From the NCBI RefSeq assembly GCF_025854275.1, contig NZ_CP107567.1:3100001-3164000 (forward strand): DNA of 64,000 bases. Direction: 5' to 3'. The notes below the pieces were generated by a model, which was not told the DNA's origin, did not search any database, and was given only the letters and a program-made list of their open reading frames with translations. Positions 1-44,030 of this stretch are shown piece by piece (positions within the stretch are counted from its first letter, which is position 1; the number at the start of each line of letters is the position of its first letter). The position numbers were made by a program, and so were the translations under genes. This stretch comes from Streptomyces peucetius. Its GTDB lineage: Bacteria; Actinomycetota; Actinomycetes; Streptomycetales; Streptomycetaceae.

Positions 1-1326
1 GGTCTGCTGCTGCTCGCCCCGCTGGTGCTGGTCTACCGCACCTTCACCCGGGACCGCAGGATCGTCTGGACCGCCGTCTGGCTCTTCTGCGTCGCCAACT
101 GGGTCGGCCAGGACTACTTCTCACCACAGTCGCTGGCGTTCGCCCTGTACCTGGGCGTGATCGCGATCGTGCTGCGCCACGGTGCACGGCGGGAGGGGCG
201 GGTGCTGCTTACGGCTCTCCTCGTCCCCCTGATCGTGGCGATCGTCGTCTCCCACCAGCTCACTCCGGTGATGCTGGGAGCCGGGCTCGCCGCACTGTGC
301 CTGACCCGCCGTCATCGGTCGTGGGCACCGCTGGTCACGCTGGTGGTGGTGTTCCTGGCGTGGAACCTGACCGTCTCGCTGCCGTTCCTGCGGGAGGCGG
401 TGCCCGAGATGGTCCGCGCCTTCGGCGACGTGCGCGGCAACCTGGAGACCGGCTACGGCTCGACACCGACCGGCACCGGGCCGGTCACCGTGTCGTGGGT
501 GGCCCGCATGCTGTCGGGAGCGGTTCTGCTGCTCGCCGCGCTCGGTGTGCTGCGTCGCAAGGCCCTGCGGAACCGGGCGCGTCCACTGATGCTGCTCGCC
601 GGGGCCCCGCTGCTGATGCTCGTCGCGAACGACTACGGCAGCGAGATGATCTTCCGGGTGCTGCTGTTCATGCTGCCGGGGGCGTGCTTCTTCGCGGCGG
701 CGGCGCTGCTGCCGCGGGACGCCCGCGCCGAGCCGGCCTCCGCGGGCGTCGCGGGCGCCGCCGATGCCGGAAGCGGGTCCGGCGGGTTCGGCGGGGCCGG
801 CGGGTTTGGCGGGGCCGGCCGTCCGGGCGCGCGGCGCCGGACCGTGGCCGCCGGGGCCGCCCTGACCGTCCTCACCGCCGCGTTCGTGCCCGCCTACGCC
901 GGAAAGGACCGGCTCAGCTACTTCCCGCCCGAGGAGGTCGAGCTCGTGCGCCAGGTGATCGACGGCGCGCCCCGCGGCTCCCTCGTCGTCGCCGCGCACC
1001 GCAACTACCCGCTGGCGTACGCCTCCTACTGGGACGTCGGCCACTACTGGTTCCTCGAGGACGCGAAGAGCCATGTCGAGGAGGTCCTCGACGACCCGGC
1101 CGGCACGCTCGCCCGGGACATGAGCGGCGTGGCGCCGCCGGGCCGGGCGTACTTCCTGCTCACCCGCGGCCAGATCGCGAACTCCGAGATGAACGGCATG
1201 CTCGGCGCGGACGAGTTGCGGCACATCGAACGGTCCGTCGCCGCCTCCCCGCTGTTCGAGCGGACCGGCGGCAACAGCGCCGGGGTCGTCTACGAACTCA
1301 GGCGCACGACAGGAGACTCCTCATGA
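1..1326 (+). CDS. Integral membrane protein of an envelope polysaccharide locus (5' end outside window)
   Basis: The reading frame is open from base 1, so the start lies upstream; 441 residues are visible. Many hydrophobic segments alternate with short basic loops (TM-rich to about residue 240 and again near 285-300), followed by an extracytoplasmic C-terminal domain of about 140 residues. The topology resembles polytopic GT-C-like glycosyltransferases or polysaccharide polymerases, but no diagnostic motif is clear, so only membrane protein is safe. A Gly-rich linker at about residues 258-275 is encoded by two copies of an 18-bp repeat (GGFGGA twice). The stop overlaps the next gene by 4 bp (ATGA), so the two are translationally coupled. 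The neighbouring GT2, deacetylase and acyltransferase genes suggest envelope glycan assembly. Confidence 0.8.
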   Translation, partial: GLLLLAPLVLVYRTFTRDRRIVWTAVWLFCVANWVGQDYFSPQSLAFALYLGVIAIVLRHGARREGRVLLTALLVPLIVAIVVSHQLTPVMLGAGLAALCLTRRHRSWAPLVTLVVVFLAWNLTVSLPFLREAVPEMVRAFGDVRGNLETGYGSTPTGTGPVTVSWVARMLSGAVLLLAALGVLRRKALRNRARPLMLLAGAPLLMLVANDYGSEMIFRVLLFMLPGACFFAAAALLPRDARAEPASAGVAGAADAGSGSGGFGGAGGFGGAGRPGARRRTVAAGAALTVLTAAFVPAYAGKDRLSYFPPEEVELVRQVIDGAPRGSLVVAAHRNYPLAYASYWDVGHYWFLEDAKSHVEEVLDDPAGTLARDMSGVAPPGRAYFLLTRGQIANSEMNGMLGADELRHIERSVAASPLFERTGGNSAGVVYELRRTTGDSS

Positions 1327-1778
1327 GACCCAGTGCTCCGCTCGCCCTCCGGCTGCTGCCGCCGCTCGTCGGCTGGTGCGCGGTGGCCGCCACCGCGCTG
1401 CCGGCCGCGTCGCCGCTGCGTACGCTCCTCGTCGTCGCGTTCCTGCTCGCCGGTCCCGGCACGGCCGTCGTCCGGGTCTGCGCACCCGCCCTGCGCAGGT
1501 ACCGGGCAGCGGCGCACGAGGACGGCAACGGCGACGACGACGACGGCTTCGCCCGCGACTCGGACCGTCTGGAGCAGCTCGTACTGACCCTCTTCCTGAG
1601 CGTGAGCGCCGCCGCCGTCTGCGCGACCGCGCTGCTCGCCGCCGGCGCCTTCAGCGGCCTGCGCGTGCTCGTGCTCCTCGCCGCGGTGACCACGCTCGCC
1701 GCGTGCTGCCCTCGGCTCACCGGCCGGGCCCCGGCCGCCCGCGCCTCCTCCCCGCCGCACAGCGGGCCCGCCACATGA
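1323..1778 (+). CDS. Small polytopic membrane protein, coupled to the upstream gene
   Basis: A 151-residue protein starting at the ATG that overlaps the upstream TGA. It has about four hydrophobic segments (roughly residues 8-28, 31-50, 86-108 and 110-127) and an acidic loop rich in Asp and Gly at about 60-80. The C-terminus is Pro/Ala-rich and short. No family is recognised. The four-base overlap with a polytopic membrane protein implies that the two products act together, probably in the same envelope glycan process. The gene is GC-rich with normal codon bias. Convergent with the polysaccharide deacetylase gene 100 bp downstream. Confidence 0.7.
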   Translation: MRPSAPLALRLLPPLVGWCAVAATALPAASPLRTLLVVAFLLAGPGTAVVRVCAPALRRYRAAAHEDGNGDDDDGFARDSDRLEQLVLTLFLSVSAAAVCATALLAAGAFSGLRVLVLLAAVTTLAACCPRLTGRAPAARASSPPHSGPAT

Positions 1779-1878
1779 CGCCGCACGACGCCGGGGCCCG
1801 GCCGGCGGGCCGCCGCCCCCTGGGTGGCGGCCCTGTCGGCGGTGGTGCTGTGCGCGGTGCTCGCCCCGTTTCGCCCGG

Positions 1879-2673
1879 TCAGCCCGCGAACCGGTGGCCC
1901 CGCACCAGCGCGCGGGCCCGCCGGTACAGCCGCCAGCCGACCGTCGGCGGCGCGTCGGGGAACGGCGCGACCGGCACACCGCCCCCGCCGGCCATCCACG
2001 CCTCGACATGCGCCACGGTGTGCGTGCGGCGCACGATCAGCCGGGCGATGCGGTACGGCTCGTCGGCCGGTGAGCTCAGCGCGTGCCGCACCGCCGCCGC
2101 CGACGCGTACCCGGCGGCGGCCGCCGCCCGGCGGACGGTGCGGCTGTTGTAGCCGTGCGGATAGGCGAGATGGGCCACGGCATGGCCCAGCACCTGCTCG
2201 AGCTCCGCCTTGGGCCGGCGCAGTTCCCGGTCCAGCGCGCGGGCCGGGAGCGTGTCGAGCTGCGGGTGGGTGTCCGTGTGCGCGCCCACCTCGATGCCGT
2301 ACTGCTCCAGCAGCGGCGCCCGGGCCAGGGTCATCATCGGCGCGGGCGGCAGCAGGCTCGTCCGCCCGGGGGTGATGGCACCGGTGGTCAGATACGCGGT
2401 CGCCGGCATCCGGCGGCTCGCGAGCGCCTCGCCGGTGGGCCCGGGGAGATCGGCGAAGCCGTCGTCGAAGGTGAGTACGACGGGACTCGGCGGCAGCGGC
2501 CCGCCGCCGGTGAGCGCGTCGACGAGCGTGCCGACGGTGACCGGGGTGCGGCCGCTCGCGGCCACGGCATCCAGATGGGCGTCGAACTGCCGCCGTCCGA
2601 CGGTGAATTCGGCGATCCAGGCGGGCGGGTCGTCCATGACCGCGTGGTAGAGAAGAACGGGAATCACACCCAC
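1879..2673 (-). CDS. Polysaccharide deacetylase (NodB homology domain)
   Basis: A 264-residue protein with carbohydrate esterase family 4 motifs: YHAV near the N-terminus, the metal/catalytic motif TFDDGF at 68-73, the second metal motif HTDTH at 132-136 and YPHGY at 171-175. It should remove N-acetyl groups from an envelope or exported glycan. No signal peptide or membrane segment is seen with this start, so it is cytoplasmic or exported by an unknown route. The GTG at 2673 was chosen because GGGAGGGG lies about 8 bases upstream; it is 5 bp after the stop of the glycosyltransferase gene, so the genes are in one transcript. Upstream in-frame extension is antisense-like low complexity and not credible. 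Confidence 0.9.
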   Translation of the reverse strand: MGVIPVLLYHAVMDDPPAWIAEFTVGRRQFDAHLDAVAASGRTPVTVGTLVDALTGGGPLPPSPVVLTFDDGFADLPGPTGEALASRRMPATAYLTTGAITPGRTSLLPPAPMMTLARAPLLEQYGIEVGAHTDTHPQLDTLPARALDRELRRPKAELEQVLGHAVAHLAYPHGYNSRTVRRAAAAAGYASAAAVRHALSSPADEPYRIARLIVRRTHTVAHVEAWMAGGGGVPVAPFPDAPPTVGWRLYRRARALVRGHRFAG

Positions 2674-2678
2674 CGTCG

Positions 2679-4016
2679 TCAGCCCCTCCCGGCATCCTCG
2701 TCCGGCGCCGCAGGCGCCCCCGTGGCGCGCAGGCGCAGACGTGCGTGGGCGTAGCCGAAGGGGCCGGCGAGCATGCCCCGGCGCTCGAGCCGGGAGAGGT
2801 GGCGCGGCCACGGGTGGTCCCGCGTCCCGTGCGGTCCCGGCACCGTGCCGGTTCCCGACTCCCGGCGGGCGGTGATGGCACGGGCGTGGGCGAGGCCTGC
2901 GGGGAGTCTGCGCAGCAGCGCGGGCAGCAGGCCGGGGCGGCGGACCAGCAGGGCGGTCAGGGACGCGGTGAGGCCGACGCCGTACCCGTACGTCTGGTCG
3001 GCCAGGTCCTGCCAGGTCTCCCGGTGGTGGTGCCACACCAGCGCCTCCGGCGCGTACCGCAGCCGGTGGCCCGCCATGAGGACGGCGACGAACGCGTACA
3101 GGTCGTCGCCTCCCCTCGCGGGCGTACCCGTGCCCGTGGCCGGGTCGAAGCCGCCGGCGCGGCGCAGCGCGGTGGCCCGGAACGCCATGTTCGCGCCGGA
3201 GCCGAAGCTGCCCGCGGTGAACGGGAACAGCGGCTGGTCGGCGGGCGGGCGCCGCGGGTCGTAGACACGCGGTGCGAAGCCCTTGGCGAAGCCGCCGTGG
3301 CTCTCCAGCAGGATCTGTGCGGGTGTGCGCAGCCGGGCGGGCAGGATCAGCCCGGTCGTACAGCCCAGTCGCGGGTCGTCGGCGAAGGGCCTGGTGAGCG
3401 CGGTGAGCCAGTGCGGGTCGGCCACGACGTCGTCGTCGGTGAAGGCGAGGACCATGCCGTCGGCGACGGCGACGCCCCGGTTGTGGGCGGTGGCCAGACC
3501 GGGCACCGGTTCGCGGACGTACCGGACGCGGACGGTGTCGAGGCCGCTGTACTTGTGCCGGACGAGGTCGCGGGTGGCCCTCGTCGCGGAGGCGTTGTCG
3601 ACGACGACGACCTCGAAGTCCGGATGGCCCTGCGCGAGCAGCGAGTCGAGCGTACGGGCCAGGCGGTCCGCGCCGTCGCGGGTCGCGACGACGACGCTGG
3701 TACGCGGCAGGTCGCCGCCGGACGGCGACGGGGCGGGCGGCTGCCGGCCGGTGAGCCGCGCGCGGGCGGCCGCGGCGACGGCGTCGACGGCGCTCCGCCC
3801 GGGCGGGACCCGGCAGACGACGGTGTCGACGGGCCGCCCGCGCAGCCGCACCAGCGCGAAGACGTCACCGCCCACGGCGGGCCCGCCCGCGTCGCCCGGG
3901 GGCGGGCCGAAGGCGAGGACCGGCCCGTCCGGCCCGTCCAGGTCCAGCTGGACCACCTGCATCGGCGCCGGCGGCCGCGGTCGCGCCGGGTCCGGTCTCT
4001 TCGAACTCAACCGCAT
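2679..4016 (-). CDS. Family 2 glycosyltransferase
   Basis: A 445-residue protein. After an about 100-residue N-terminal domain the GT-A fold begins at about residue 105 (SVVVATRDG), with VVVVDNAS at 136-143 and the metal-binding DxD-type motif TDDD at 193-196. A later segment has the conserved W-H pattern near a predicted acceptor region. It probably transfers a sugar from a nucleotide sugar to an envelope polymer. The ATG at 4016 follows GGGAGGGGG by a normal spacing and is preferred over an ATG 8 codons upstream. It is the middle gene of a three-gene minus-strand operon (acyltransferase, glycosyltransferase, deacetylase). Confidence 0.92.
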   Translation of the reverse strand: MRLSSKRPDPARPRPPAPMQVVQLDLDGPDGPVLAFGPPPGDAGGPAVGGDVFALVRLRGRPVDTVVCRVPPGRSAVDAVAAAARARLTGRQPPAPSPSGGDLPRTSVVVATRDGADRLARTLDSLLAQGHPDFEVVVVDNASATRATRDLVRHKYSGLDTVRVRYVREPVPGLATAHNRGVAVADGMVLAFTDDDVVADPHWLTALTRPFADDPRLGCTTGLILPARLRTPAQILLESHGGFAKGFAPRVYDPRRPPADQPLFPFTAGSFGSGANMAFRATALRRAGGFDPATGTGTPARGGDDLYAFVAVLMAGHRLRYAPEALVWHHHRETWQDLADQTYGYGVGLTASLTALLVRRPGLLPALLRRLPAGLAHARAITARRESGTGTVPGPHGTRDHPWPRHLSRLERRGMLAGPFGYAHARLRLRATGAPAAPDEDAGRG

Positions 4017-14703: not shown

Positions 14704-15105
14704 GTGCCCGGAATCGACGAGTGTCTGCTGCAAGCCATGGTGGTGCCGGGGGCCCGGGGAGCCTCCGTCGTGGACTGGACGAGCGGACTCGCCCTCGGCA
14801 CCGTCGGGGAGACCCCCGGCGGCGACCACGAGACGACCGCCGCGGAGACCGCCGAACTCGCCCGGATGGCCGCCGAGTACCCGTCGTTCGCGCCGGACGA
14901 GCCCCCGGGGGCCGACGGCGCCAAGGGGTTACCCGTCGAGGACCTGATCGTCACCAACCGAACCGGCTACCACGTGATGCGGTTCGTGGAGACCACGTTC
15001 GACAGCAGTGTGTTCCTGCATCTGTGGCTCGACCGGGACACCGGCAACCTGGCGCTCGCCCGGCTGCGCCTCGCGGACCTCGCAGAGCGGCTGATCCTCG
15101 GATGA
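14704..15105 (+). CDS. Roadblock/LC7-like protein with a TTA codon (predicted bldA target)
   Basis: A 133-residue cytoplasmic protein. The pattern GASVVDWTSGLALGTVG (about 18-34) and the later VEDLIVTN / VFLHLWLDR segments match its paralogue at 16453 (IGAALVDYTSGMALGTVG, IEDILITL, LFLYLALDK), consistent with a roadblock/LC7-type alpha-beta fold. Codon 76 (14929-14931) is TTA, the only in-frame TTA that I found in any gene of the window, so full translation should need the UAA-anticodon tRNA encoded at 26554. GTG start with GGGAGGGG upstream; the stop overlaps the next gene by 4 bp. First gene of a four-gene cluster. Function unknown. Confidence 0.85.
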   Translation: MPGIDECLLQAMVVPGARGASVVDWTSGLALGTVGETPGGDHETTAAETAELARMAAEYPSFAPDEPPGADGAKGLPVEDLIVTNRTGYHVMRFVETTFDSSVFLHLWLDRDTGNLALARLRLADLAERLILG

Positions 15106-25526: not shown

Positions 25527-26399
25527 CTAGTCCTCGCCGCTGAAGATGGCCACCAGACGCAGCATCTCCAGGTAGATCCAGACCAGCGTCACCGTCAGGC
25601 CGAAGGCCGCGAGCCAGGACTCCTGGCGCGGCGCACCGTAGGTGATGCCGTCCTCGATCTCCTTGAAGTTCAGGGTCAGGAAGAAGCAGCCGATCAGGAT
25701 CGCCAGGATGCCGACGATCGCGCCGATCGGGCCGAAGCTGCGCAGACCGCCGTCCTCGGCGACGCCGAAGACCACCAGCAGCAGGTTCACGGCCAGCACG
25801 GCGATGAAGGCGAGCGCGATGGTCATGCCGATGCGGGCGTACCGCGCGGTGACCCGGATCCAGCGCTGCTTGTACACGAACAGCATCGCGCCGGTGACGG
25901 CCATGGTGCCGACCACCGCCTGGAACGGCGCACCGTCCCAGCGGGTGTTGAACATCTCGCTGATCACGCCGAGGAAGATGCCCTCGAAGGCCGCGTAGCT
26001 CAGGATCAGCGCGGGCGACGGCGTCCGCTTGAAGGACTGGACGATCGCGAGGACGAAGGCGACCAGGGCCGAGCCGATGGCGATCCCGTAACTGGTGGGC
26101 GACACCGGCAGCAGGGCCCATGCGAGGACCGCGCCGAGCACCACGGTGCCCAGCGTCATGCCCGTGCGCGTGACGACGTCGTCCATCGTCATGACGTCCG
26201 TACGGACCGGTGCCGGGGCACCGTGCTGCGTGCCCGCCGGGGCGTAGGGGTTGGTCGCGTAGGGGTTGCCGGCGCCCTGGGCGTAGGGGTTCGTTCCTAC
26301 GGCGGGGCCCCCGGCCTGCGGCTGCTGCGCGTTGAAGCCGGCGTAGCCGTTGTCACGGCTGAACCCCCGTCGCGAGAAGACCGGGTTGCTGCTCCTCAT
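25527..26399 (-). CDS. Bax inhibitor-1 / YccA family membrane protein
   Basis: A 290-residue protein. The first about 65 residues are a Gly/Pro/Asn/Tyr-rich cytoplasmic tail with repeated NPYA motifs. About seven TM segments follow from residue 75, with the conserved region around SYAAFEGIFLGVISEMFN and the last segments containing WLAAFGLTVTLVWIYLEMLRL, typical of actinobacterial YccA/BI-1 proteins. In this superfamily acidic residues gate a proton-sensitive calcium leak; the bacterial role is not settled. GGAGGAG precedes the ATG. The promoter lies in the 150 bp up to bldA. Confidence 0.93.
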   Translation of the reverse strand: MRSSNPVFSRRGFSRDNGYAGFNAQQPQAGGPAVGTNPYAQGAGNPYATNPYAPAGTQHGAPAPVRTDVMTMDDVVTRTGMTLGTVVLGAVLAWALLPVSPTSYGIAIGSALVAFVLAIVQSFKRTPSPALILSYAAFEGIFLGVISEMFNTRWDGAPFQAVVGTMAVTGAMLFVYKQRWIRVTARYARIGMTIALAFIAVLAVNLLLVVFGVAEDGGLRSFGPIGAIVGILAILIGCFFLTLNFKEIEDGITYGAPRQESWLAAFGLTVTLVWIYLEMLRLVAIFSGED

Positions 26400-26553
26400 C
26401 TCACTCCTCCTTGGCCACCGTGCGCGGCCTAGAAGTCAAGAGTAATGGGCAAGCAAAGAGAACGCCCTAGTGCTCGGGGAGGATCTTTCCGAGATCGTGA
26501 CACGGGGGCGGCGGTCCGGGGGACCGGCGTGGCGGGGGCGACGGGGCGTCGAG

Positions 26554-26635
26554 TGCCCGGAGCCGGACTTGAACCGGCACGCCCCGAGGGGCAGCGAGGT
26601 TTAAGCTCGCCGTGTCTGCATTCCACCACCCGGGC
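26554..26635 (-). tRNA. bldA: tRNA-Leu(UAA), the bldA tRNA
   Basis: The minus strand folds as a class II tRNA: acceptor GCCCGGG with TCCGGGC plus discriminator A, anticodon stem GCGAG/CTCGC around loop CTTAAAC, a long variable arm, and T arm GCCGG-TTCAAGT-CCGGC. The anticodon is TAA (26601-26603 on the plus strand). CCA is not encoded. In Streptomyces the only tRNA that reads UUA efficiently is bldA, which controls morphological development and antibiotic production because TTA is rare and found mainly in regulatory or stationary-phase genes. The sequence agrees with the bldA tRNA as I remember it. Confidence 0.95.
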
Positions 26636-26998
26636 GTGGCGCGAGGGCTCCGCGTCGGATCACGAGCCTATCGGTGCAGATCGCTCGCCCATCTGGACGA
26701 TGGCCCGATCTTGGCCTGTTCCAGAGGCTCCTGAGGGAGCGTCAGGCCAGATAAGAGAGTATTCGCGCGCCCCTCCCGGCGCATGGGAGCACCGCCACGG
26801 ACCGCCGGGATTGACGGAAAAGCGCCCTCCGCTCCCCCATGGCCCCTCAGGGCGCCCGTCATCCCAAAGGAGGAGGAACGTGGCGCCCGGTCCGACCCGA
26901 GAGGGCCCTGGGAACGGGCACCGGGACTGACGATCCGCGGCGCCGGCGCGGACAGGATGGTGTCGACCCCACAGAACACCTCGACAGGAGCTCTCCTC
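26636..26998. other. Intergenic region between bldA and the ABC exporter
   Basis: About 363 bp holding the divergent promoters of bldA (minus) and the ABC transporter operon (plus). I saw no gene. It includes several short GC hairpins but no structure that I can name. Confidence 0.5.
26665..26670 (-). promoter_or_regulatory. Candidate -10 element of the bldA promoter
   Basis: TAGGCT on the minus strand ends 30 bp before the mature 5' end of the tRNA, a position that would give a leader of about 20 bases. No convincing -35 hexamer was found, so this is tentative. Confidence 0.3.
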
Positions 26999-27769
26999 GT
27001 GACCACCACCCCCATCGCTCACCGCGCCACCGCAGTGGCGGCCCGCGCCACGGACCTGTCCAAGGTCTACGGACAGGGCGAGACCCAGGTGGTCGCGCTG
27101 GACCATGTGAGCGTCGACTTCCGGCAGGCCGAGTTCACCGCGATCATGGGCCCGTCCGGCTCGGGCAAGTCGACGCTGATGCACTGCGTCGCCGGCCTGG
27201 ACAGCTTCAGCTCCGGCTCCGTACGCATCGGTGAGACCGAACTCGGCAGCCTGAAGGACAAGCAGCTGACGCAGCTGCGCCGCGACAAGATCGGCTTCAT
27301 CTTCCAGGCGTTCAACCTGCTGCCGACGCTGACCGCGCGGGAGAACATCACGCTCCCGATGGACATCGCGGGCCGCAAGCCCGACCAGGAGTGGCTGCAG
27401 CGGGTCATCGACATGGTGGGTCTGCGGGACCGGCTCGGTCACCGGCCGACGCAGCTCTCCGGCGGCCAGCAGCAGCGCGTCGCCGTGGCTCGCGCCCTGG
27501 CGTCCCGGCCGGAGATCATCTTCGGCGACGAGCCGACCGGGAACCTGGACTCCCGCTCCGGCGCCGAGGTGCTCGGCTTCCTGCGCAACTCCGTGCGCGA
27601 GCTCGGCCAGACCGTGGTCATGGTGACCCACGACCCGGTGGCCGCGTCCTACGCCGACCGGGTGATCTTCCTGGCGGACGGCGCGATCGTCGACGAGATG
27701 CACAGCCCCTCCGCGGACGGCGTGCTCGACCGTATGAAGGCCTTCGACGCCAAGGGCCGCACGAGCTGA
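26999..27769 (+). CDS. ABC transporter ATP-binding protein (MacB/LolD type)
   Basis: A 256-residue ATPase with Walker A GPSGSGKST (51-59), Q-loop FIFQAFNLLP, signature LSGGQQQR (153-160), Walker B IIFGDEP (173-179) and H-loop VMVTHD. The type is the LolD/MacB family that works with FtsX-domain permeases. It should energise the permease 119 bp downstream for extrusion or envelope remodelling; substrate unknown. GTG at 26999 has AGGAG 8 bases upstream; an in-frame ATG at 26957 would add 14 residues. Confidence 0.94.
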   Translation: MTTTPIAHRATAVAARATDLSKVYGQGETQVVALDHVSVDFRQAEFTAIMGPSGSGKSTLMHCVAGLDSFSSGSVRIGETELGSLKDKQLTQLRRDKIGFIFQAFNLLPTLTARENITLPMDIAGRKPDQEWLQRVIDMVGLRDRLGHRPTQLSGGQQQRVAVARALASRPEIIFGDEPTGNLDSRSGAEVLGFLRNSVRELGQTVVMVTHDPVAASYADRVIFLADGAIVDEMHSPSADGVLDRMKAFDAKGRTS

Positions 27770-27888: not shown

Positions 27889-30426
27889 ATGTTCCGTACC
27901 GCCTTGCGCAACGTGCTTGCGCACAAGGCCAGGCTGCTGATGACCGTGCTCGCCGTGATGCTCGGCGTCGCCTTCGTCTCCGGCACCCTGGTCTTCACCG
28001 ACACTCTCGGCAATGCCTACCGCAACCAGTCCGCCAAGAGCTACGACGACGTCGCCGTCGCCGTGACGACCTACATCGACCCGAGCGACGCCGAGAAGGA
28101 CGCCGGCGTCGACGAGAAGACCCTGGAGAAGATCCGGGGCATAGACGGCGTGGCATCGGCCGCGGGCCGGGTCTCCGGCTTCGCCGGCGTGGCCGACCAG
28201 GACGGCAGGCTCATCGGCAACGGCTGGTCCAACACCGGGGCGAACTACGCCCCCGTCAAGGACGGCACGGACCCCGCGTACACCTTCACCAACGGTGCGG
28301 GGCCGCGCGAGGACGACGAGATCGCCCTCGACAAGGACTCCGCCGCCAAGGGCGGGTACGAGGTCGGCGACACCGTGCGGGTGGCCACCAACGGCCCGGT
28401 GAAGGAGTACACCCTCGCCGGCGTCTTCACCACCGAGGACGGCGCGGTCAACGCGGGCGGCAGCCTGGTCCTCTTCGACACCGACGTGGCCCAGCGGCTG
28501 TACCTCCAGCCCGGGTACTTCGCGGACGTCACCGTGACCCGAGAGCCCGGCGCGTCCGACGCGAAGATTCTCGCCGCCGTGGAACCGCTGCTGCCCGAGG
28601 ACTCCGAGGTGCAGACCGGCAAGGAGCTGGCGGACGAGCAGGCCGAGCAGATCGAGAGCGGCCTGTCGAACCTGAACACGATGCTGCTCGCGTTCGCGGC
28701 CATCGCCCTGTTCGTCGGCGTCTTCCTGATCGCCAACACCTTCACCATGCTGGTCGCCCAGCGAACCAAGGAGCTGGCGCTGCTGCGCGCCGTCGGCGCA
28801 TCCCGCCGTCAGGTGAAGCGCTCCGTGATCCTCGAGGCGCTGGTCGTCGGCGCGATCGCCTCCGTGGTGGGCTTCCTGCTCGGCCTGGGGCTCGCGACCG
28901 GTCTGCGCTCCGCGATGAGCACCTTCGGTGCGAAGGTGCCCGCCGGACCGCTGGTCGTCTCGCCCACCGCCGTGGCCGCCGCCCTGGCCGTCGGTGTGGT
29001 GATCACGGTGCTGGCGGCGTGGCTGCCCGCCCGCCGGGCCGCCAAGATCCCGCCGGTCGCGGCGATGAGCAGCGTGCACGCGGTGGCGACCACCAGGTCG
29101 CTGGTGCTGCGGAACACCATCGGCGGTGTGCTCACCCTGCTGGGCGCCGCCGCGATCGTCGCCGGTGCGGCGGCGGGCTCCGACGGCCGAATGATCATCG
29201 GGGGCGGCGCGTTCCTGGCGCTGGTCGGCATCATCGTCCTGATCCCGCTGCTGTCCCGCCCGGTGATCGCGCTGGTGCGGCCGCTGCTGAAGGGCGTCTT
29301 CGGGGTCTCGGGCAAGCTCGCCGGGCAGAACGCGGTGCGCAATCCGCGCCGTACGGGAGCCACCGCCTCCGCGCTGGCGATCGGTCTCACCCTGGTCACC
29401 GGGATCTCCGTGCTCGGCGCCACGATGGGCCGGGCCGTGGACCAGATGACCACGGACAACATCCGGGCCGACTACATGGTCTCGATGGCCGGCGGCGGCG
29501 CGCTGGACAAGTCGGCGCTGGACGCGATCGAGAAGGCGAAGGGCATCGGCGCCGTCTCCCCGCAGCAGGCGTCCTCGATGGAGATCAAGGGCGAGTGGCA
29601 CTCGGCGTCCGCGGTCACCCCGGGCGACGTGGAGAAGGTCTTCGACCTGGAGACGGTCACCGGCTCGCTCGCCACGCTCGGCAAGGGGCAGATCGCGGTC
29701 GACGAGGACACCGCGAAGTCGAACGGCTGGAAGACCGGTGACACCCTGCCCGCCGAGTTCGGCGAGGAGGGCAAGAAGGAGAAGAAGACCCTGACGGTCG
29801 GCGCCGTCTACAAGGGCAACGAGTTCCTCTCGCCGATCCTGGTCGCCACCGACGTCGTGGCTCCGTACGAGCCCAAGCCGTACATCCCCGAGATCTGGGT
29901 GACGATGGACGGCGGCGCGACCGCGGCGAACGAGCAGGCGCTGGTCGACGCGCTCGGCGACAACCCGGCGATGAGCATCATGGACCAGCAGGACATCCGG
30001 AACATGTTCGGCGGCTTCATCAACACGGCGCTGAACATCATGTACGGGCTGCTGGCGATGGCCCTGATCATCGCGGTGCTCGGTGTCATCAACACCCTGG
30101 CGATGTCCGTCTTCGAGCGTCAGCAGGAGATCGGCATGCTCAGGGCGATCGGGCTTGACCGCGGCAAGGTGAAGCGGATGGTCCGGCTGGAGGCGGTGGT
30201 GATCTCGGTCTTCGGCGCGGTGGTCGGCATCGGTCTCGGCTCGTTCCTCGCGTGGGCGATCGGCGAGACGATCCGCAAGGAGATCCCCGGTTATGTGCTG
30301 GTCATGCCGTGGGACCGGATCGGGATCTTCCTGCTGCTGGCCGGAGTGGTCGGCGTGCTGGCCGCGATGTGGCCGGCGCGCAGCGCGGCGAAGCTGAACA
30401 TGCTGACGGCGATCAAGACGGAGTAG
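27889..30426 (+). CDS. FtsX/MacB-type ABC transporter permease (two FtsX domains)
   Basis: An 845-residue permease. An N-terminal TM helix (about 14-35) is followed by a large extracytoplasmic domain with many Asp/Lys residues, then an FtsX domain with three TM segments (about 265-385, including AQRTKELALLRAVGASRRQV), a central TM pair (about 405-450), a second extracytoplasmic domain and a C-terminal FtsX domain (about 705-840, FERQQEIGMLRAIGLDRGKV). This eight- to ten-TM, two-FtsX layout is common in actinobacterial ABC systems that act without a separate membrane-fusion protein. Ends before a 21-bp shared terminator. Confidence 0.94.
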   Translation: MFRTALRNVLAHKARLLMTVLAVMLGVAFVSGTLVFTDTLGNAYRNQSAKSYDDVAVAVTTYIDPSDAEKDAGVDEKTLEKIRGIDGVASAAGRVSGFAGVADQDGRLIGNGWSNTGANYAPVKDGTDPAYTFTNGAGPREDDEIALDKDSAAKGGYEVGDTVRVATNGPVKEYTLAGVFTTEDGAVNAGGSLVLFDTDVAQRLYLQPGYFADVTVTREPGASDAKILAAVEPLLPEDSEVQTGKELADEQAEQIESGLSNLNTMLLAFAAIALFVGVFLIANTFTMLVAQRTKELALLRAVGASRRQVKRSVILEALVVGAIASVVGFLLGLGLATGLRSAMSTFGAKVPAGPLVVSPTAVAAALAVGVVITVLAAWLPARRAAKIPPVAAMSSVHAVATTRSLVLRNTIGGVLTLLGAAAIVAGAAAGSDGRMIIGGGAFLALVGIIVLIPLLSRPVIALVRPLLKGVFGVSGKLAGQNAVRNPRRTGATASALAIGLTLVTGISVLGATMGRAVDQMTTDNIRADYMVSMAGGGALDKSALDAIEKAKGIGAVSPQQASSMEIKGEWHSASAVTPGDVEKVFDLETVTGSLATLGKGQIAVDEDTAKSNGWKTGDTLPAEFGEEGKKEKKTLTVGAVYKGNEFLSPILVATDVVAPYEPKPYIPEIWVTMDGGATAANEQALVDALGDNPAMSIMDQQDIRNMFGGFINTALNIMYGLLAMALIIAVLGVINTLAMSVFERQQEIGMLRAIGLDRGKVKRMVRLEAVVISVFGAVVGIGLGSFLAWAIGETIRKEIPGYVLVMPWDRIGIFLLLAGVVGVLAAMWPARSAAKLNMLTAIKTE

Positions 30427-41249: not shown

Positions 41250-44030
<2,781 letters not shown>

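Follow-up and report, generated by a model that had tools for sequence, protein, structure and literature searches.

The window, by which we mean the whole stretch of 64,000 nucleotides analysed here, carries on its minus strand what is almost certainly bldA, the chromosomal gene of the genome's only UUA-reading tRNA, set between a gene for a membrane protein and a divergent pair of ABC transporter genes (Table 1). ARAGORN reported a single tRNA in the window, a tRNA-Leu with anticodon TAA at 26553-26635 (-), one base longer than the placement by the Rfam tRNA model (genome C1:3126554-3126635), which scored 47.8 bits against a cut-off of 29; a default Rfam scan of the whole window did not have the gene among its matches. 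The sequence ends with the discriminator A at 26554 and continues with CTC, so that the 3' CCA is not encoded. A 34-base core of the gene has a single occurrence in the window, and 100 shuffled windows contained none.

Table 1. Features of the bldA locus and of the TTA-containing gene, in window coordinates.
Feature	Position	Strand	Basis or remark
bldA: class II tRNA-Leu(UAA), 82 nt	26554..26635	-	ARAGORN, Rfam model, sequence, covariation
Anticodon TAA within loop CTTAAAC	26601..26603	-	ARAGORN (anticodon position 33) and sequence
-10-like box TAGGCT, starting 35 nt upstream of the tRNA gene	26665..26670	-	sequence; putative promoter element
Candidate attachment-site core (last 22 nt of bldA and the next base), empty here	26553..26575	-	homology with repeats of G015 and G019
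Downstream neighbour, Bax-inhibitor-1-like membrane protein (yccA)	25527..26399	-	Pfam PF12811, E 2.4e-76
Divergent upstream neighbour, ABC transporter ATPase (start codon uncertain)	27035..27769	+	Pfam PF00005
ABC transporter permease (FtsX/MacB type), adjoining the ATPase	27904..30426	+	Pfam PF02687, PF12704
Only gene with a TTA codon of 58 predicted in the window	14704..15105	+	TTA at 14929-14931 (codon 76)

The minimum-energy fold of the bldA strand alone was cloverleaf-like, with a distorted D region and a z-score of only -1.93; folding energy by itself is weak evidence for this tRNA. Comparison with related genes, on the other hand, argues strongly for a class II fold. Across 19 aligned sequences, namely 18 bldA genes including the window copy and a diverged second copy from another genome (L101 of G010, which is not a bldA orthologue yet adds to the covariation signal), standard pairs filled 98.3% of the cells of the class II cloverleaf, the helix of the long variable arm was paired in 91.6% of cells, and six of 25 pairs had changed on both sides, a number that none of 500 shuffles matched. 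The reading in the preliminary description, a complete class II tRNA with anticodon UAA on the minus strand, is thus borne out by ARAGORN, by Rfam and by covariation.

The genome is of Streptomyces type and consists of one contig of 8,050,611 bases (8.05 Mb) with a completeness estimate of 100%. Over its whole length the Rfam tRNA model gave 74 matches, 68 of them above the cut-off; ARAGORN called a tRNA at 67 of these 68, jointly covering all 20 amino acids, and exactly one call, the window gene, had a UAA anticodon. The remaining leucine genes called by ARAGORN have the anticodons GAG (two genes), CAG, UAG and CAA. Neither a similarity search of the genome with bldA nor a pattern search found a second full-length copy or another UAA gene, and the possibility of a further tRNA-Leu(UAA), which the earlier description had asked to be checked, is answered in the negative among the 68 matches. 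The next-best genomic match to bldA is a near-exact 26-base copy of the T-arm region at C1:6260971-6260996 (L213), rejected as a second tRNA because ARAGORN sees no tRNA there. Two other tRNA-like genes came up in the same survey: C1:3827281-3827352 (L422), with 53.5 bits in Rfam and no ARAGORN call, adjoins tRNA-Gly(GCC) genes and reads glycine-like, and C1:7036937-7037009 (L080) was called by ARAGORN with the four-base anticodon ctga and is possibly a frameshifting or decaying tRNA.

Within the genus, bldA with its flanks was matched in 147 of 150 sampled genomes. The loci retained from each search were the best matches and not a random draw; among them, ARAGORN read TAA in the window gene, in the 29 other best-matching loci (L034-L062) and in L093-L096. 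A 44-base core with two degenerate positions had at least 118 matching stretches, and those listed, with record names taken from 80 of the matches, came from Streptomyces, Streptacidiphilus and Actinacidiphila. The three genomes lacking a match (G030, G130 and G139) are all drafts, two of them with the region missing or cut, and loss of bldA was not accepted for any of them. The contig of G139 ends 262 bases past the downstream neighbour, and in G030 that neighbour is itself without a match; in G130, a draft of 780 contigs, the neighbour was found and the roughly 3.4 kb upstream of it contain no bldA, for which we cannot offer an explanation beyond draft quality.

The neighbourhood is likewise that of the genus. 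An orthologue of the ABC transporter ATPase lies divergently upstream in 95 of 113 bldA loci, and in 85 of the 94 that include at least 1,300 bases of upstream DNA; the window gene occupies this same orthologous position. The Bax-inhibitor-like orthologue follows on the same strand in 56 of the 113 loci (32 within 700 bases, 20 at 700-3,500 and four farther away), a count in which the misses are partly truncation, as only 52 of the 113 loci span 2,500 bases downstream. Mobile copies of tRNA-Leu(UAA) do exist, on the plasmids described below and on a 162 kb contig of G010, where a second gene is known, and the window gene might on this ground be taken for a later or mobile copy rather than the bldA orthologue. 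We regard this as extremely improbable, given that the window copy sits on an 8.05 Mb contig between neighbours typical of bldA in the genus, has the conserved -10 box, and is the only tRNA-Leu(UAA) of its genome, no better-conserved copy being found elsewhere by similarity or by the tRNA survey. The assignment to Streptomyces bldA made beforehand therefore holds on three grounds, the single tRNA-Leu(UAA), the matches across the genus and the conserved neighbours, and the comparison with other streptomycete bldA genes, by genome matches as by cloverleaf pairing, agrees with it; no evidence against it was found. The window gene is an ordinary, intact copy of bldA and belongs to already known biology; it adds to the record of this textbook translational switch a firmly identified orthologue, together with its neighbours and an integration site that is unoccupied.

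That site lies at the 3' end of the gene. In four of the 150 genomes (G015, G019, G003 and G140) a tyrosine integrase gene starts about 100 bases past an intact bldA, with Pfam PF00589 in the integrases of G015, G019 and G003; identity above 50% to the G015 integrase was found only in these four genomes, and eight others had matches of 39-42% elsewhere (limit E 1e-60). In G015 (C1:3115368-3150192) a perfect 23-nt repeat of the bldA 3' end lies 34.7 kb away, with the usual downstream neighbour 163 bases past it, and in G019 (C1:3441725-3484818) an identical 25-nt copy recurs 43.0 kb away, with the neighbour 173 bases later. In these two genomes, with both junctions in place and bldA intact, elements of about 35 and 43 kb that carry an integrase have evidently used the bldA 3' end as their attachment site. 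Presumably they are among the tyrosine-integrase elements that insert at tRNA genes, such as actinomycete integrative elements, with which they share the integrase and the 3'-end repeat; the site in the window is empty, with just 154 bases between bldA and the neighbouring gene. Further repeats of the bldA 3' end were found 19.4 kb away in G003 and 8.2 kb away in G112, the neighbour not being reached in the DNA spanned; the two open reading frames inspected beside bldA in G112 were not integrases, and in G140 the integrase was present with no repeat within the 60 kb examined. A related integrase occupies the same place beside bldA in S. griseofuscus DSM 40191. A TTA codon as a rule for integrases at this site was rejected, since one of the four genes has one. 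In G148, which has an intact bldA on a different contig, 55 bases repeating the 3' part of the gene (C24:89866-89920, L137) lie 13.5 kb from the usual downstream neighbour and are possibly a junction or a remnant of an inserted element. No report of bldA as an attachment site came up in our literature search, which had most subscription papers outside its coverage; that mobile elements land at the gene of a developmental tRNA is potentially weightier than the bldA copy itself.

Extra copies of tRNA-Leu(UAA) occur on some plasmids. A blastn search with bldA against 72,556 plasmid records returned 23 matches, 14 of them in Streptomyces; ten of the 14 were fetched, five of which are from S. anulatus and several of which look interrelated. 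ARAGORN called a tRNA-Leu(TAA) at the match in nine of the ten (L366-L374) and no tRNA in the tenth (L375). In seven of the ten (L375 included, hence six of the nine with a call) an annotated ScbR- or TetR-type regulator, which we take to be of the gamma-butyrolactone-receptor type, precedes the tRNA or tRNA-like match at a distance of 8-35 bases; for L374 the distance is 322 bases, and the plasmid gene table, which is incomplete, has none for L368 and L373. TTA codons were present in three of 60 annotated genes around the plasmid tRNAs, with no local excess evident. Some of the plasmid copies show anticodon-stem mismatches by manual reading and may be decaying. The arrangement of receptor plus tRNA was found in one of 392 genus genomes (G203, with tRNA-Leu(TAA) by ARAGORN) in a survey that scored two candidates per genome, so that a genus-wide habit of carrying a second copy on plasmids is not supported. 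Separately, G010 carries its diverged second tRNA-Leu(UAA) at C1:112441-112526 (L101/L140). A literature search on plasmid copies of bldA, again with most subscription papers outside coverage, retrieved nothing relevant; a developmental tRNA present as an extra copy on some plasmids could likewise matter more than the window gene.

Turning to expression, a box reading TAGGCT, TAGGGT, TAGTCT or TAAGCT was present in 99 of 114 bldA upstream regions, the window included, and started 33-35 nt before the gene in 78. CCA is encoded after the discriminator in 45 of the 114 bldA-type genes compared and is missing from the window gene. Compared with bldA of S. coelicolor and of streptomycetes at large, nothing important is different: both are single-copy class II tRNA-Leu(UAA) genes with the loop CTTAAAC in a setting where TTA codons are very rare. 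By analogy with this family, from which we infer promoter activity, timing of expression, modification, charging, dispensability and developmental role, the window bldA would be transcribed from a short upstream promoter with the TAGGCT -10 box; its transcript would be processed and, since CCA is not encoded, would receive its CCA end post-transcriptionally, and the mature tRNA would be charged with leucine and then used at few UUA codons. With UUG served by a CAA tRNA of its own, bldA would be free to stay a specialised UUA reader.

In S. coelicolor, bldA limits the translation of UUA-containing genes for development and secondary metabolism. The consulted portion of one study reports a single UUA-decoding tRNA gene in each of six Streptomyces genomes, bldA in S. 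coelicolor (PMC4932002), and that of another describes bldA as the only UUA tRNA of S. coelicolor, one that growth does not require but part of development and of secondary metabolism does (PMC2000904). Excerpts of a review have AdpA activating bldA transcription and BldD with a strong target inside bldA (PMC4255298). The timed accumulation of bldA is contested in print: a 2025 paper, in the parts consulted, finds transcription of S. coelicolor tRNA genes, bldA included, without temporal difference and describes the delay in charged tRNA as having no known cause (PMC12772374).

The rarity of UUA in genes, on which this role depends in the preliminary description, holds for the window, where 58 genes predicted by a simple GC-frame gene caller contain, among 17,691 codons, one TTA, 28 TTG, 3 CTA, 32 CTT, 738 CTC and 1,014 CTG, a count that covers the window genes only. 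The single TTA codon lies in a gene 11.6 kb from bldA, near a Roadblock-domain gene, and its protein had no Pfam or NCBIfam match at E 0.001. An average of 177 TTA open reading frames per genome, as given in the extract consulted of PMC10327506, and an assumed ~7,000 genes give an expectation of about 1.5 TTA genes in 58, against one observed. Orthologues of this gene were matched in 129 of the 150 genus genomes, and conservation of the codon was checked in the best 30 of these loci, the window included: the aligned TTA was common to the window and G129 only, that is, kept in one of the 29 other loci, and four of the remaining 28 had a TTA elsewhere in the gene.

The earlier description had proposed local co-regulation of bldA with a TTA-containing operon. 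Both genes do lie inside the window, and a TTA somewhere in the aligned gene in six of the 30 orthologue loci, our own included, is above the few percent usual for genes. We nevertheless consider it highly improbable that the two form a local regulatory unit, given the distance with its many intervening predicted genes, the number of TTA genes per window, which is about the expected one, and the poor retention of the codon position. Because bldA acts in trans on every UUA codon, proximity to it has no regulatory meaning by itself; nothing links the TTA gene to bldA beyond this general rule, and the proposal is not supported.

The tRNA for the sister codon UUG behaves differently from bldA. The sole CAA tRNA of the genome (C1:1884794-1884868, about 75 nt; L145:1501-1576) has a 5-nt variable loop and no long arm, and is therefore class I, whereas bacterial tRNA-Leu is typically class II. 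Its anticodon is the same as that of SCOt09, the tRNA-Leu(CAA) of S. coelicolor, in the tabulated portion of PMC4932002. Among 23 distinct class I CAA sequences of the genus, hand-picked from those fetched, one cloverleaf accommodates standard pairs in 460 of 460 pair cells (0/500 shuffles), the covariation score is 0.466 (0/500 shuffles), ten of 20 pairs have changed on both sides (5/500 shuffles reach that) and the discriminator A is kept in 23 of 23; the count of further pair types was not above shuffles (467/500).

A pattern search for CAA tRNAs had matches in 104 of the 150 genus genomes. The class was assigned to each row by manual reading of match length and variable-loop motif, after dropping tRNAs with D-loop CTCAAA and a CAT anticodon region and the odd matches in G096, G136, G078, G049, G034, G125 and G140; on this basis tRNA-Leu(CAA) at one conserved locus is class I in 45 genomes, class II in 51, both in none and unclassified in 54. 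Both flanks of our class I gene could be aligned to the DNA bordering class II genes in G129 (L127), G030, G139 and others, so that class I and class II genes represent one locus, and about 500 bases around and after the CAA tRNA of G129 fail to align with ours. A tree of the upstream flanks of 53 distinct loci (38 class I and 15 class II, an enrichment in class I that stems from 30 loci having been retrieved for their similarity to the class I form) requires ten changes of shape, of which well-supported branches make at least eight unavoidable; shuffled labels give 13.2, and the shape is thus partly clustered on the tree. The bootstrap had yet to converge fully, and any swap of the flanking DNA itself would make the number of switches misleading. 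Our own locus (class I) and the class II locus of G129 form a sister pair on a starred branch of this tree, and the nearest sampled relative of our genome by the bldA region is class II.

If the class I tRNA were perhaps not charged with leucine, bldA might also be the main reader of UUG, and genes with UUG codons would then depend on bldA. The missing long arm of the only CAA tRNA invites this reading, U34 of the UAA anticodon can in principle wobble-read G, and TAA is listed as a UUG reader in Table 1, as excerpted, of PMC4932002. All 17 TTG codons of the window that could be aligned with G129 face leucine there; five of them are codon 1 of predicted genes, and of the 12 internal ones six face CTG or CTC and six face TTG. 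As far as this small sample goes, UUG therefore appears still to mean leucine, although such an alignment cannot tell which tRNA reads it. The class I genes, moreover, look functional by their complete standard pairing, two-sided changes and invariant discriminator, and S. coelicolor bldA mutants grow according to the consulted part of PMC2000904, which, should the CAA tRNA of that species also be class I, is hardly compatible with a dependence on bldA for UUG. A bldA that is the main UUG reader is accordingly very unlikely in our view.

On balance we favour, with moderate confidence, a reading in which the two tRNAs of the UUR pair evolve in opposite ways: bldA is fixed in shape and nearly fixed in sequence, and tRNA-Leu(CAA) repeatedly switches between class II and class I at one locus, probably as alleles akin to the short leucine tRNAs of phages replace it. 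A search with the class I CAA gene matched 23 phage records, and in the three inspected, ARAGORN called leucine tRNAs of 76-78 nt each (Pseudomonas phage, CAA and TAG; Streptomyces phage Tomas, GAG; Streptomyces phage Lululemon, CAA), which makes a phage source of the class I alleles possible. Compared with the other tRNAs of its own genome, the class I gene had low best scores spread over Arg, Lys, Met and Glu, which single out none of the genome's other tRNA families as its origin. Were repeated switching confirmed, leucine identity in these bacteria would not require the long arm, and some process that spares bldA, be it exchange with phages, integration or toxins that target tRNAs, would keep swapping tRNA-Leu(CAA). 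A literature search on class I leucine tRNAs, in which most subscription papers were outside coverage, gave nothing relevant. Gain and loss of the long variable arm of a leucine tRNA inside a single genus are potentially of greater weight than the bldA copy in the window, and we consider this repeated switch of class the foremost side observation worth passing on.

Elsewhere in the window, a c-di-AMP riboswitch (ydaO/yuaA) was recognised at 43576-43761 (-) with 58.2 bits, and directly downstream of it, at 42880-43572, lies a transglycosylase-like gene with a LysM domain.
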